A stretch of DNA of 61,351 nucleotides from Elusimicrobiota bacterium (lineage in GTDB: Bacteria > Elusimicrobiota > Elusimicrobia > Elusimicrobiales > UBA9959), in contig WOVA01000011.1 of the NCBI GenBank assembly GCA_009773155.1, positions 1 through 61,351 on the forward strand. Direction: 5' to 3'. Numbering within the stretch: the first letter of the stretch is position 1; each line of letters begins with the position of its first letter. This document shows positions 1,288-50,846 of the stretch, one piece after another. The translations under genes were made by a program, and so were the position numbers. The notes under the pieces were generated by a model. The model was not told where the DNA came from, did no database searches, and saw only the letters and a list, made by a program, of their open reading frames with translations.

Positions 1288-2184
1288 ATGGCTATACTTC
1301 TGGATAAGAACACCAGGCTCGCGGTGCACGGCCTGACCGGCGCGCAGGGCTCCTTCCACGCCGGGCAGTGCATGGAATACGGGTCCAAAGTCGTCGCCGG
1401 CGTGACCCCCGGCAAAGGCGGGACCGCCCATCTCGGCGTCCCGGTCTTCAACACGGCCCGCGAGGCGGCCCGGGAAGCCGGCGCCGACGCCTCGCTGATC
1501 TTCGTTCCCCCGCCTTTCGCCGCCGACTCCATACTTGAGGCGGCCGCCGCCGGCATGCGCACCGTCATCTGCATCACCGAGGGCATACCGGTCTGCGACA
1601 TGGTGCGCGTCAGGCACACGCTCAAGGCCTGGCGGGCCGCCGGCATGGACGTCACGCTGGTCGGCCCCAACTGCCCCGGCGTGATAACGCCGGGCGAGTG
1701 CAAGGCCGGCATCATGCCCGGCTATATCCACAAGAAAGGCCCGGTCGGGGTGGTCTCGCGTTCGGGCACGCTGACCTACGAGGCGGTCTGGCAGCTCACC
1801 TCCCTCGGGCTGGGCCAGTCCACCGTGGTGGGCATAGGCGGCGACCCGGTGCAGGGGCTCAATTTCGTAGACACGCTGGATCTTTTCGAGCGGGACCCGG
1901 AGACCCGGGCCGTCGTGATGATAGGCGAGATCGGCGGAGCGGCAGAAGAGGACGCTGCCCGGTTCATAAAGGATAAGATGACCAAGCCGGTGTTCTCTTT
2001 CGTCGCCGGCAAGACCGCGCCCCCGGGCCGGCGCATGGGCCACGCCGGGGCGATAGTCGAGGGAGGAGCCGGCACCCACGCCGGAAAAGTGGAGGCCCTG
2101 ACCGCCGCGGGCGTCACCGTGGTGGAGAACCTCTCGGACATGGGCCGCACCGTCGCGGAGAAGCTCGGCTCGGCGATAAAATAA
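1288..2184 (+). CDS. sucD: succinyl-CoA ligase, alpha subunit
   Basis: Alpha subunit that binds CoA and carries the phosphohistidine intermediate. The 298-residue protein has the CoA-binding Rossmann motif [12 protein letters not shown] near residues 11-22 and the active-site motif [14 protein letters not shown], whose His is residue 252. It lies 9 nt behind sucC, and its TAA stop shares one base with the ATG of the next gene (TAATG). The CorA-like gene downstream is therefore probably translationally coupled to it, which is an unusual partner for sucCD. Confidence 0.96.
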
Positions 2185-3110
2185 TGATAACCCGCTATAC
2201 CATCGAGGCGAACCAGCTAAAAGAGGCGCCGCAGGGCCCCCACTGCGTCACCGTCGCGGTCAACCCCGACGAGGCCGGGCGCAAGGAGCTGCTGGCCGAA
2301 TTCGCGGTGGACGAGCACAACCTGCACTCCTCGCTGGACCCCGAGGAGCCGGCCCGCCTGGAGGTGGAGGACGGCCACCTGGAGCTTATCTTCAAGCGGC
2401 CCAAGAATTATTCCTCCAAGGACCATTTCCTCTTCAAGGTCTCGTCTATGGGCCTGTTCCTGTTCAAGGACCGGCTGCTGATCGTGCTCTCGGAGGAAAT
2501 GCCAATCTTCACGGGCAAGTATTTCAAGCACGTCGCGGGCCTTAAGGAGATCTTCCTCAAACTGCTCTACAACGCCATCTTCCATTTCATGGAGCATCTC
2601 AAGGTGATCAACATGATCGCCGACGAGATAGAGACCAAGATAACGCGTTCGATGGAGAACCGCTACCTGCTCAACATGTTCACGCTGGAGAAGAGCCTGG
2701 TCTACTACCTCAACGCCATCAGTTCCAACGCCTTCGTGATAGAGCGCCTCAAGGCCAACTCCGAGAAGCTGGGCTTCACCGAGCGGAGCCGCGAGTTCAT
2801 CGACGACGTGCTCATCGAGAACACGCAGTGCTACAAGCAGGCCGAGATCTACTCCAACATCTTCGCCTCGCTGGTCGGCGCGCGCGCCTCGATAGTGAGC
2901 AACAACCTCAATATCCTGCTCAAGAACCTCAACGCCATAGTCATCGCCATCGCGGTACCCAGCTTCTTCGCCGGCATGGGCGGCATGTCCGAGCTGACCG
3001 GGCTCTTCGGCGCGGAGAACTGGTATCTCACCTACCCCTCCTTCTTCGCCCTCATGATAGTCATGGGCGTGGCCATCTTCCACCTCATAAAGCGCTTCGA
3101 GAAACATTGA
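2184..3110 (+). CDS. CorA-like divalent-cation transporter, non-canonical signature
   Basis: A 308-residue protein with the CorA plan: a long cytoplasmic N-terminal domain rich in charged helices, then two C-terminal membrane helices (about residues 245-268 and 280-300) and a basic tail. It should be a pentameric inner-membrane channel for Mg2+ or a related metal. The hallmark Gly-Met-Asn at the end of the first membrane helix is absent: the sequence there reads FFAGMGGMSELTG. Variants of this kind may form a distinct subgroup, so the transported ion is uncertain. The start overlaps the sucD stop by one base. A GGGGAC palindrome begins five bases after the stop. Confidence 0.8.
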   Translation: MITRYTIEANQLKEAPQGPHCVTVAVNPDEAGRKELLAEFAVDEHNLHSSLDPEEPARLEVEDGHLELIFKRPKNYSSKDHFLFKVSSMGLFLFKDRLLIVLSEEMPIFTGKYFKHVAGLKEIFLKLLYNAIFHFMEHLKVINMIADEIETKITRSMENRYLLNMFTLEKSLVYYLNAISSNAFVIERLKANSEKLGFTERSREFIDDVLIENTQCYKQAEIYSNIFASLVGARASIVSNNLNILLKNLNAIVIAIAVPSFFAGMGGMSELTGLFGAENWYLTYPSFFALMIVMGVAIFHLIKRFEKH

Positions 3111-3114
3111 TAAT

Positions 3115-3207
3115 GGGGACGTTCTTTAGTTCTTTAGTTTTTCACCGTGACGCGCGCCTCTGACAGGTATGGCTTTCAAAAAAACTAAAGAACTAAAGAA
3201 CGTCCCC
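3115..3207. repeat. GGGGAC/GTCCCC inverted repeat spanning the rimO start
   Basis: Left arm GGGGACGTTCTTTAGTTCTT at 3115-3134, continuing TAGTTTTT to 3142. The right arm at 3181-3207 is its exact reverse complement and ends GAACGTCCCC. The roughly 35-nt loop contains the rimO ATG (3169). The right arm is translated as RimO residues 5-13 (KTKELKNVP). The outer ends GGGGAC and GTCCCC match those of the 27-bp palindromes in this window. A transcript crossing it could fold into a stem of about 27 bp that sequesters the rimO initiation region. Confidence 0.85.
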
Positions 3208-4530
3208 AGGATCTTCATCTCCAGCCTGGGGTGTCCCAAGAACCTGGCCGACGCCGAGGTGATGGCCGGCGAGCTGGCCGGCGCCGGCTGGGAGGTAGTC
3301 TCCGACGAGGCCGAAGCCGACGCCGCGCTGGTCAATACCTGCGCCTTCCTGGGCTCGGCGGTGAAAGAATCAGAGGCCGAGATACGCCGGCTCCTCGCGC
3401 TCAAGAAGCTGGGACGGCTGAAGAAGGTCATCATAGCCGGCTGCCTGACCGAGCGGATGAAGGGCGCCCTGCTCGACAAGTTCCCGGAGGCGGACGCGGC
3501 CATCGGCGTCGGCGCGCTGAAAGACGCTGTCCGGGCCCTCGAAGAGGGCGGCCTGCGACTAGGGGACACCATGCGGCATGGTGTCCCCTTTCTGGAGGCC
3601 CCGCCGCTCAAGCTGCGGCTGACCGCGCCGCACAGCGCCTACCTGAAAGTCGCCGACGGCTGCGACAACCGCTGCGCCTACTGCCTCATCCCCTCGCTGC
3701 GCGGCCCCTTCCGCTCAAAGCCGCTGGAAGCCGCCGTCGAGGAGGCCCGGCTGCTGGCGGCCAGCGGCGCGAAGGAAATTTCCCTCATCGCCCAGGATAC
3801 CACCCTATACGGCGCGGACCTGTACGGAAAGCCGGCCCTGGGCAGGCTGCTGCGGAAAATCTCCGCGATAAAAGGCCTGCGCTGGATACGCGTGATGTAC
3901 GCCTACCCCGAGCGCGTCACCCCCGAGCTTCTGCGCGCGATGGCCGGTGCGGAAAATATCTGCCGCTACCTGGACCTGCCGCTGCAGCACGCCTCCGACG
4001 CGGTGCTCAAAGCCATGAACCGCCGCTCGACGGAGAAAAGCCTGCGCCGCACCCTGTCGTCCATACGCCGGCTCCTGCCGGGCGCGGCCATAAGGACCAA
4101 TTTTATAGTCGGCTTCCCGGGCGAGACGGACAAGGACTTCGCGCGCCTGCTGCGCTTCGTGCGCGACGAGCGCCTCGACAATGTCGGGGTGTTCAAATAC
4201 TCGCGGGAACCCGGGACCTCGGCCGCCGGTTTCCCGGGGCAGGTCCCGGACAAGGTCAAGACAGCGCGCATGAACGAGCTGCTGGCCGCGCAGGCCGCCG
4301 GCGTCGATTCCATCAACGCCGGCCTGGTCGGTAAAAAGTTAGAGGTACTGATGGACTCCCCCCGCTTCGGCCGAACCTACCGCGACGCGCCCGGGATAGA
4401 CGGCACGGTGGAAGTCTCCGCACCGGGGGACACCATGCAACAGGGTGTCCCCAAGCCCCGCCCGGGCGATTTCGTCAAAGTCAGGATAACTTCCGCCCGC
4501 GGCTACTCCAGGAAGGGCATACTCCTCTGA
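3169..4530 (+). CDS. rimO: ribosomal protein S12 methylthiotransferase RimO
   Basis: Radical-SAM methylthiotransferase that modifies an aspartate of ribosomal protein S12. The 453-residue protein has the MTTase domain with cysteines in SLGCPKN (Cys22), NTCAF and AGCLTER, the radical-SAM cluster motif CDNRCAYC (Cys165, 169, 172), and a C-terminal TRAM domain. The spelling GCPKNLADAE favours RimO over MiaB. Two 27-bp palindromes sit in-frame: one at residue 132, between the MTTase and radical-SAM domains, and one at residue 420 in the TRAM domain. The first dozen codons come from the arm of another inverted repeat. The core family sequence begins at RIFISSLGC, so the native start may have been replaced. 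Confidence 0.95.
   Translation: MAFKKTKELKNVPRIFISSLGCPKNLADAEVMAGELAGAGWEVVSDEAEADAALVNTCAFLGSAVKESEAEIRRLLALKKLGRLKKVIIAGCLTERMKGALLDKFPEADAAIGVGALKDAVRALEEGGLRLGDTMRHGVPFLEAPPLKLRLTAPHSAYLKVADGCDNRCAYCLIPSLRGPFRSKPLEAAVEEARLLAASGAKEISLIAQDTTLYGADLYGKPALGRLLRKISAIKGLRWIRVMYAYPERVTPELLRAMAGAENICRYLDLPLQHASDAVLKAMNRRSTEKSLRRTLSSIRRLLPGAAIRTNFIVGFPGETDKDFARLLRFVRDERLDNVGVFKYSREPGTSAAGFPGQVPDKVKTARMNELLAAQAAGVDSINAGLVGKKLEVLMDSPRFGRTYRDAPGIDGTVEVSAPGDTMQQGVPKPRPGDFVKVRITSARGYSRKGILL
3562..3588. repeat. 27-bp palindrome, in-frame copy in rimO
   Basis: Perfect copy with arms GGGGACACCAT and ATGGTGTCCCC and loop GCGGC. It is read as GDTMRHGVP at RimO residues 132-140, in the hinge between the MTTase and radical-SAM domains. 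Confidence 0.95.
4426..4452. repeat. 27-bp palindrome, variant copy in rimO TRAM domain
   Basis: The outer 9-bp arms GGGGACACC / GGTGTCCCC are intact, but the centre has drifted to ATGCAACAG. It is read as GDTMQQGVP from RimO residue 420. It is an older or diverged copy. Confidence 0.9.
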
Positions 4531-21560: not shown

Positions 21561-22514
21561 ATGACATATCTCCCCGACGGCGTAACCCCAGAACTCTACC
21601 CTTTCGAGGGCAAATACCTTGAAGTGCGCGGCGGCCTGCGCCTCCATTATCTCGACGAAGGCGCCGGCGAGCCGGTGCTGATGCTGCACGGCAATCCCTC
21701 CTGGTCTTTCTATTACCGGGACCTGTCCCTTGCGCTCAAAAATTCGCGCCGCGTCATAGTCCCCGACCATATCGGCTGCGGCCTCTCCGACAAGCCGGGC
21801 GACGACCGCTACGACTACACGCTCCAGAGCCGAGTGGAGGATATCGGGGCCCTTGTCGATTCGCTGGACCTGAAGGAAAAGATCACGCTGGTCGTGCACG
21901 ACTGGGGCGGCATGATAGGCTTCGCCTGGGCGGCGCGCAACCCGGAGCGCGTCGAAAAACTGGTGGTCCTCAATACCGCGGCCTTCTTCCTGCCCTCGGC
22001 CAAAGCCTTCCCCGCCGCGCTGGCCCTGGTCCGCACCCCGCTCGGGGCGCTGCTGGTGCGCGGATTCAACGCTTTCGCGCGCGGAGCGGCCTGGATAGGC
22101 TGCAAGCGGCGGCGCATGACGGCCGGCCTGCGCGCCGCCTACGCCGCGCCCTATAACAGCTGGAAGAACCGCCTGGCTACGCTGCGCTTCGTCGAGGATA
22201 TACCGCTGGGCCCGGGCGACAAGGCCTACGCAGTCGTCTCGGAGACGCAGGATAAGCTCCCCCTGCTCGCCGACAAGCCCATGCTGGTCTGCTGGGGCCT
22301 GAAGGATTTCGTCTTCGACCGCCACTTCCTGGCGGAGTGGCGCCGCCGCTTCCCGTCGGCCCGGGTCCGCGAGTTCCCCGACTGCGGCCACTACATACTG
22401 GAAGACGCCAAAGAGGAAGTTATCCCTCTGATAAAGGACTTCATACTTGGGGACACCATACCGCATGGTGTCAACCGGTACGGGGACACCATGCCGCATG
22501 GTGTCCCCCGCTGA
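21561..22514 (+). CDS. oleB: OleB, beta-lactone decarboxylase (haloalkane-dehalogenase fold)
   Basis: Alpha/beta-hydrolase that converts the OleC beta-lactone to a cis-alkene plus CO2. The 317-residue protein has the oxyanion motif HGNPSW, nucleophile Asp114 in VVHDWGG and His277 in CGHYILED. I recall the same numbers for characterised Xanthomonas OleB. The natural C-terminus should end near DFIL (residue 295). The last 22 residues are encoded by two palindromes and the stop codon follows directly, so the tail is repeat-derived. It lies 8 nt after oleA, and its TGA overlaps the oleC ATG. Confidence 0.92.
   Translation: MTYLPDGVTPELYPFEGKYLEVRGGLRLHYLDEGAGEPVLMLHGNPSWSFYYRDLSLALKNSRRVIVPDHIGCGLSDKPGDDRYDYTLQSRVEDIGALVDSLDLKEKITLVVHDWGGMIGFAWAARNPERVEKLVVLNTAAFFLPSAKAFPAALALVRTPLGALLVRGFNAFARGAAWIGCKRRRMTAGLRAAYAAPYNSWKNRLATLRFVEDIPLGPGDKAYAVVSETQDKLPLLADKPMLVCWGLKDFVFDRHFLAEWRRRFPSARVREFPDCGHYILEDAKEEVIPLIKDFILGDTIPHGVNRYGDTMPHGVPR
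22449..22508. repeat. pair of palindromes forming the OleB tail at the oleB-oleC junction
   Basis: The first copy (22449-22475) has a decayed right end (GTGTCAACC). The second (22482-22508) is perfect. Read on the minus strand, the second copy has the flanks GCATCAGCG and GTACCGG seen at other extended copies, so it is inverted relative to those in pfaC. Together they encode GDTIPHGV and GDTMPHGVP at the OleB C-terminus, only a few bases before the oleC start. Confidence 0.93.
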
Positions 22515-50783: not shown

Positions 50784-50846
50784 AAAAAGGGGACGCTGAT
50801 TACTAAATGACTAAATTAGTCATTTAGTAATCAGCGTCCCCTTTTT
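50784..50846. repeat. 63-bp perfect palindrome with GGGGAC/GTCCCC core ends
   Basis: Two 31-nt arms around a single central base (50815). The GGGGAC at 50789 and GTCCCC ending at 50841 bound a 53-bp core, extended by A5/T5 outside. The arm interior reads GCTGATTACTAAATGACTAA. It lies between the divergent MFS and DUF2157 genes, 18-19 nt from each start codon. It has A/T flanks like an intrinsic terminator in both directions, so it could attenuate either gene or mask a start. Confidence 0.93.

Follow-up and report, generated by a model that had tools for sequence, protein, structure and literature searches.

We consider it probable that a miniature derivative of a TIRYT-type transposon has inserted at the start codon of rimO in the genome of the uncultured Elusimicrobiota bacterium studied here, and that the ATG in the loop of this element is now the start of the gene. 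The donation of the start codon itself by the element is very likely, judging from the reading frame and from the same junction in related genomes. The window, i.e., the whole stretch of DNA that was analysed, measures 61,351 nucleotides and belongs to the genome termed G000; G001, G002 and G003 are its congeners, and G007 represents another genus of the same family.

The hairpin at the rimO start

The junction between corA and rimO shows the following features:

2184..3110, + strand: corA, directly upstream of rimO; match over the cut-off for Pfam CorA (PF01544) and below the cut-off for the NCBIfam corA model (TIGR00383)
3113..3163, + strand: 16-codon frame from the ATG at the left edge of the element, out of the rimO frame; possible former rimO start
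3115..3142, + strand: 5′ arm of the rimO-start element, made up of a GGGGACG tip and 8-nt periodic units after it; does not code for rimO
3143..3179, + strand: apical loop of 37 nt, holding the rimO ATG (3169-3171)
3180..3207, + strand: 3′ arm, encoding RimO residues 5-13 (KTKELKNVP)
3169..4530, + strand: rimO, 453 aa; match over the cut-off for TIGR01125, with UPF0004, Radical_SAM and TRAM_2
3169..3204, + strand: putative element-derived N-terminal extension, RimO residues 1-12 (MAFKKTKELKNV), ahead of the conserved PRIFISS

A sequence-only reading of this region had described an inverted repeat with a stem of about 27 bp, whose right arm encodes RimO residues 5-13 and whose loop contains the ATG, and the analysis bears this out: the arms are perfect over 28 bp around the 37-nt loop, the ATG at 3169-3171 lies within 3143-3179, and residues 5 and 13 correspond exactly to 3181-3183 and 3205-3207, with 3180 as the one extra base of the arm. 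The span then given to the element, 3115-3210, was placed correctly but exceeds the perfect element (3115-3207) by 3 bases. When mismatches are allowed, the pairing extends to 3109-3142/3180-3213 with 94% complementarity. Indeed, the RNA of 3090-3260 folds at -71.8 kcal/mol compared to a shuffle mean of -44.9 (z -6.4; none of 200 shuffles was as stable). The hairpin is not due to chance, since its 23-nt arm core is repeated in the genome, with 46 matches (23 + 23, at most 3 mismatches) in the 2.76 Mb of G000 and none in a backward-read control. On the strand of the 3′ arm, the coding frame is the only one free of stops in the family consensus.

In the rimO frame, a stop at 3148-3150 is followed by the ATG at 3169, which is the only ATG, GTG or TTG before the invariant C22, and the next in-frame starts (GTG and ATG, residues 31-32) lie past this cysteine. 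The same holds in G003, where the loop ATG is again the sole in-frame ATG, GTG or TTG before the cysteine and the upstream stop differs. The RimO N-terminal peptide expected from the loop start would thus be MAFKKTKELKNVPR (MAFK...), with or without the initiator Met. The gene is intact and under purifying selection: between G000 and G003, dN is 0.070 and dS 0.511 (ratio 0.138), and dN/dS remains between 0.09 and 0.16 across six pairs within the genus. The nearest named RimO relative in the genome collection, from an Elusimicrobiales MAG, is 85% identical in the best segment. Note that the Shine-Dalgarno score at ATG 3169 is only -0.7 kcal/mol compared to a mean of -4.9 over 38 called genes, 4 of which are worse, and that it is -3.0 at the empty rimO site of G001. 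There is almost no Shine-Dalgarno match at ATG 3169, and initiation there may therefore be weak and the output low.

Sites with and without the element in relatives

In G001, which has the empty site, the corA stop is followed by GA and then by ATG CCG CGC ATC TTC, so that rimO begins 2 nt past the corA stop and RimO starts with MPRIFISS. In G003, the same element is found at the same place with the same loop ATG, which gives RimO the N terminus MAFKKTKELNNVPRIFISS; the bases directly ahead of the element no longer contain an ATG. In G002, a different, half-decayed GGGGACGTTGTTGACTTATTG element occupies the junction, and RimO begins MKDRKHGKVPRIFISS. Outside the genus, Met stands directly before the conserved motif in the 26 junctions compared, and starts of other genera read MP(K/R). 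These comparisons qualify the earlier proposal that the element had overwritten the native start: an inserted repeat and a displaced native start are both borne out by the empty site of G001 and by the MP(K/R) starts of other genera, but ‘overwritten’ goes too far, since an ATG still stands at the left edge (3113), out of the rimO frame, and ‘displaced by insertion at the start codon’ is the better description. Removal of exactly 93 nt leaves no ATG at rimO, and the insertion boundaries are therefore not fixable: some bases must have been common to element and target, or else were lost or altered.

Some junctions outside the genus bear other hairpins upstream of the Met. Among 30 genomes, the junction stem score was at least 20 in five (G000, G003, G006, G033 and G017), 12-14 in four and below 12 in 21; the stems of G006 and G033 start with GGGGACG, and that of G017 has another sequence. 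Hairpins at the junctions of several genera suggest that the corA-rimO junction was hit repeatedly, and among the genomes compared the start codon is displaced only in members of this genus. Trees of rimO codons differ in the order of the genus members: FastTree groups G000 with G003 (0.81), and IQ-TREE sets G003 outside the other three (support 46). We favour the former grouping because both genomes carry the start element as well as the first of two palindromes found inside rimO (see below); following the IQ-TREE order, G001 would have lost both.

Copies and distribution of the repeat family

The 46 arm matches of G000 fall into 27 loci, namely 20 inverted pairs, with loops that vary in length and sequence, and 7 single arms. 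With at most 2 mismatches, the arm core was found in 5 of 294 genomes drawn from the phylum, four of them members of the genus and the fifth being G007; forward/reverse counts were 23/23 in G000, 11/9 in G003, 5/3 in G002, 1/1 in G001 and 1/2 in G007. With up to 3 mismatches, 8 of 41 relatives had a match. The arm family is thus nearly confined to the genus.

Genes around the copies were called with a simple codon model, for which 31 stop-to-stop frames of the window, each of 150 codons or more, served as training set. By this model, the copies at the 27 loci are mostly intergenic and near gene ends, and only rimO clearly starts from an element. In three of the 27 loci, an arm gives the preceding gene its stop codon (L013, L015 and, by its element at 1501, L024; ending GDVV*). 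As further examples, the gene at L021 crosses the loop and ends at a stop codon of the second arm, L027 has a single arm in frame within a gene (TKELNNVP), and the gene context of the single arm at L028 is ambiguous. No target duplication was recognised by eye across the G000 loci, and no plasmid relatives of the corA-rimO junction were found. Among the open-access matches listed, no published description of the arm GGGGACGTT was recognised by title, and no paper on this family or on an element-donated rimO start was recognised by title or start of abstract.

Link to Y1 transposases

As to its nature, the element most plausibly derives from a TIRYT-type transposon (TIR-flanked Y1 tyrosine transposon) as a miniature, non-autonomous form, because fragments of Y1 transposases adjoin near-consensus arms in another genus. 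Indeed, three loci of G007 (L170, L176 and L221) contain tnpA fragments whose aligned ends are separated by 15-18 nt from arms that depart from the family consensus at 1, 1 and 2 of 23 positions, respectively; the rimO copy has one further mismatch. These fragments are 74% and 70% identical to the L042 protein of G000 over 74 aa and 58% over 285 aa, the L176 fragment aligning to L042 residues 32-316. It should be noticed that all three loci sit at contig ends, so that the transposon was not seen in one piece, and that no complete transposon with the exact arm was found beside any of the Y1_Tnp genes, of which G000 has 3 and the four genomes of the genus have 7.

The L042 protein matches Y1_Tnp over the cut-off and, in its C-terminal part, Bac_DnaA_C with an E-value of 7e-4, which is below the Pfam cut-off; the L184 protein of G002 is 49% identical to it and shows the same two matches (Bac_DnaA_C, E 3e-6, likewise below the Pfam cut-off). 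The terminal repeats are GGGGACGTTGATGAA[A/T]AGATGACTA for L042 and GGGGACGCTGATTACTAAATG[A/C]CTAATT for L184, both carrying GGGGACG. The window itself holds a palindrome of this kind:

50789..50841, + strand: related palindrome with 26-bp arms (GGGGACGCTGATTACTAAATGACTAA)

Its arm matches the better L184 terminal repeat over 26 nt. The arms of these families have a GGGGAC-like tip followed by 8-nt periodic units, the arm identity being 0.69 at lag 8 and 0.21-0.40 at the remaining lags between 3 and 13, for 8 arms (two of them near-identical) that were picked after the pattern had been noticed. Two side observations concern these transposons: at L184 (879-889), the TGA stop of the upstream gene comes from a transposon terminal repeat, and a third palindrome family (GGGGACACAATACCTATTTCG) flanks a Y1_Tnp gene on both sides in three genomes of the genus (L043, L185 and L186).

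Palindromes inside rimO and the predicted protein

Two further palindromes of a second family lie in frame within rimO:

3562..3588, + strand: 27-nt palindrome GGGGACACCATGCGGCATGGTGTCCCC, encoding GDTMRHGVP (residues 132-140); also in G003
4426..4452, + strand: variant of the 27-nt palindrome, encoding GDTMQQGVP (residues 420-428) in the TRAM domain; absent from G001-G003

The first is absent from G001 and G002. Compared to these two genomes, the net gain is 5-6 codons for each 9 inserted, suggesting that a few native codons were replaced too. With at most 3 mismatches, the 27-nt family has 138 copies in G000, 15, 11 and 15 in G001-G003, and 0-1 in 37 other genomes. The sequence has no stops in any of the six frames. 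Among the 34 perfect copies, 12 passed a strict test for a coding frame that continues on either side of the palindrome, which the other 22 failed, and 9 of these 12 share one phase (GDTM[RP]HGVP; binomial P 0.004 compared to equal phases, a test chosen post hoc).

The predicted RimO structure has a mean pLDDT of 91.9 (25-row alignment). Its lowest 10-residue blocks are residues 1-10 (43), 421-430 (61) and 131-140 (64), i.e., the three segments attributed to elements, and pLDDT is below 50 for residues 1-8. The prediction is consistent with flexible surface loops for all three, although the thin alignment of inserts can itself lower pLDDT. In addition, G011 (L061) and G022 (L060) have long in-frame inserts of other sequence in the same TRAM loop as the 4426 palindrome, which suggests a tolerated insertion spot.

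Copies or relatives of the 27-nt palindrome (GGGGACACCATGCNGCATGGTGTCCCC) occur in the window at 3562, 4426, 10251, 11124, 17780, 18065, 18095, 22449, 22482, 22979, 36186, 46994 and 47374, several of them with longer like flanks (GCG before and GTAC after). GGGGACA sites number 23 in the window compared to 7.9 expected. At 22449-22514, two adjacent 27-nt palindromes end the called gene 21561-22514, whose stop overlaps the next ATG (TGATG). Just before the first gene, at 50-90, GGACATTTCTA occurs in two similar stretches, with ATTGC after it in the one from 50 and TTTGC in the one from 75; a different mobile element may have left these stretches as its ends or remnants.

Conservation of the loop and coupling of the arms

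Between the arm cores, the inner 47 nt are identical at 43 positions in G000 and G003; these 4 differences compare to 0.37 expected per synonymous site (P 9e-6), and the 31 nt before ATG 3169 also show 4 differences (P 0.003), both P values assuming that sites are independent and that synonymous sites are neutral. G000 has five other doublets in common with G003 or G002; out of 46 arm-core positions, these show 0-1 differences, compared to 3 at rimO. One of the five loops is inverted, two others outscore all 200 shuffles, and the remaining two, one of which contains unread bases, lack a clear likeness. The idea that loops were replaced at all other shared sites was thus rejected, as two of the five are still alike. 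The retention of the loop at rimO fits with constraint and is no proof of it, since other shared loops and arms are also alike and the low change may be a property of the elements and not of the rimO start. The donation of the start codon is argued here from the reading frame and the related sites and not from loop conservation.

The two arms appear to change together. At element position 10, the paired G-C of G003 corresponds to C-G in G000 on both arms, with N to K at residue 10; the 3′ arm of G003 has one unpaired change besides, and its stem has one mismatch. The 3562 palindrome also displays a paired change (C-G in G000, A-T in G003; G to C in the protein), the directions of both changes being taken from the family consensus. 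Among the 20 doublets of G000, 7 non-consensus positions are common to both arms and 2 are found in one arm only, and most of the shared positions can be accounted for if variant elements were copied. The short loop of one shared site is inverted between G003 (L211) and G000 (L005), with a score of 11 inverted and 3 direct, as expected from template switching or recombination between arms. More tentatively, we suggest template switching as the source of the coupling, a reading that leans on the two paired substitutions and the one inverted loop. Arm homogenisation and spacer inversion are both described as its products in PMC8604942, and hairpins kept by template switching are reportedly the subject of a second paper (PMC8794818).

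Covariation of the arms was also considered as a proof of RNA function and rejected: arms are as conserved at the other shared sites, where by the codon model the elements start no gene, and the pairing at rimO can therefore not be credited to RNA function.

Alternative explanations

The sequence-only reading had raised a structure-dependent translation of rimO, which we find no more than possible. In this view, the hairpin could be a working translational control, in which the stem-loop displays or sequesters the start and the output is set by folding, by RNase III or by ribosomes finishing corA. Such a role would agree with the very stable fold, with a start that sits in the loop in both G000 and G003, with a loop that diverged less than synonymous sites, with the paired arm change that preserves the stem, and with the almost absent Shine-Dalgarno match. 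However, the arms are equally or better conserved at the five other shared sites, which start no gene by the codon model, and the G003 stem tolerates one mismatch. Opening the region from -18 to +15 around the start costs 13.1 kcal/mol in G000 and 14.0 in G003, about 4 more than at the empty site of G001 (9.6), and five other genomes range from 9.5 to 30.8. Moreover, no Rfam family matches the hairpin, and neither an intrinsic terminator-like nor a promoter-like site was found at it. We regard such control as unlikely. A small chance is also given to a broader proposal, in which the palindromes would act as mutational coupling devices, the non-coding arm dictating the residues of the other arm because template switching keeps both identical; for rimO, the element would provide the start codon, the N terminus and a structure-gated translation switch together. 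If this were true, the several independent palindromes at the corA-rimO junction would represent repeated recruitment and not tolerated hits.

It may also be supposed that the ATG at 3113, possibly the old start, drives the 16-codon leader (3113-3163) and hands ribosomes to ATG 3169 by termination-reinitiation. The frame is present in the sequence with its stop 5 nt before ATG 3169, and the Shine-Dalgarno score at ATG 3113 (-3.0) is better than that at 3169 (-0.7). G003, however, shares the element and the loop start but lacks both the upstream ATG and the stop, which means that this layout was not conserved; because G003 lacks the leader, we set this coupling aside as the main mechanism and consider it quite unlikely.

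Very unlikely is a start beyond the element, or at a codon other than AUG just before RIFISS, by which the extension would become an annotation effect, an explanation put forward in PMC3733652 for many REPs that lie at predicted N termini. The almost missing Shine-Dalgarno match at 3169 would suit it, but from 3169 to the invariant C22 no other ATG, GTG or TTG exists, including the place just before RIFISS that the sequence-only reading had named as an example of a competing start. Finally, an assembly or binning artefact is extremely improbable: the genome is in 93 contigs and repeats can mislead assemblers, but the element recurs at this position in G003, a separate genome of another species, where 43 of the 47 inner nt are identical.

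Discussion

Altogether, our results point to an insertion of a miniature non-autonomous Y1 derivative at the rimO start codon in an ancestor common to G000 and G003, after which translation would proceed from ATG 3169 in the apical loop. RimO would have gained about 11 net residues, MAFKKTKELKNV replacing the native M, as a disordered tail on an intact enzyme. With less support, template switching during replication would keep the arms complementary, so that changes in the 5′ arm and in the coding 3′ arm arrive together; such coupling would explain the N10K difference between G003 and G000. The simplest reading would be that the insertion was tolerated, rimO having been rescued by chance through the open frame and the ATG of the element; the hairpin need not regulate anything.

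As a kind, the element joins known things, namely transposon-derived palindromes and coding palindromes. Among the former, the passages of PMC3733652 and PMC6006769 on TIRYT/TIRtron elements describe Y1 transposases of subclass 2.1, and our elements resemble them by (i) GGGG-tipped terminal inverted repeats that also occur apart from the transposase, as single copies, dimers or clusters, and perhaps by (ii) a Y1 transposase with a putative C-terminal DnaA-like helix-turn-helix, for which the match is here below the Pfam cut-off. The tip of the rimO family (GGGGACGT) differs in missing the GGGGWSAS motif at the seventh base; according to PMC3733652, where it treats these tips, the motif is found in some but not all published TIRs and is not required. 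GGGGWSAS is fitted by the 27-nt family (GGGGACAC) and by the L041 repeat (GGGGACAG). A further difference from the TIRYT elements as described there is that one copy here sits on the start codon of a gene and supplies it. The REPIN and GTAG REP doublets associated with RAYTs are similar in being inverted doublets, thought in the account of PMC6006769 to be mobilised by a related Y1 enzyme. In contrast, the arms of the rimO family are long, A+T-rich and 8-nt periodic and lack a GTAG/GTGG foot, none being seen by eye in the bases before GGGG of the 20 doublets of G000.

Among the coding palindromes, the Rickettsia palindromic elements (RPE) comprise several palindrome families in frame in housekeeping genes, as reported in the relevant parts of PMC10969869 and PMC3733652. 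The rimO palindromes at 3562 and 4426 are alike in that they lie in frame in a conserved protein gene, compared to the uninserted G001 and G002. By the published descriptions, RPEs are of about 150 bp, compared to 27 nt here and to a start element of 93 nt with transposon-like ends. Since RPE-1 elements are reported at the N terminus of proteins expressed in vivo in Rickettsia (PMC3733652, in its passage on RPEs), an element-encoded N terminus is not without precedent. The Coxiella QMITEs are also miniature elements that overlap genes and give residues or stop codons, and their stable mRNA stem has been proposed as an RNase III substrate (PMC5896051, in its parts on these points). The difference is that their enhC example is a C-terminal extension, and the term ‘start codon’ does not occur in the main text of PMC5896051.

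The case provides a before and after, with an empty site and a site filled in two species, in which a miniature element would replace the start codon in the gene of a conserved enzyme that modifies the ribosome. It also extends to Elusimicrobiota the coding palindromes inserted in frame, for which Rickettsia is the best-known example, and one protein would contain three element-derived segments, all at predicted flexible spots. The paired substitutions within coding DNA would be explicable by hairpin template switching, without selection on RNA structure, and this calls for caution in taking covariation as proof of a functional RNA.
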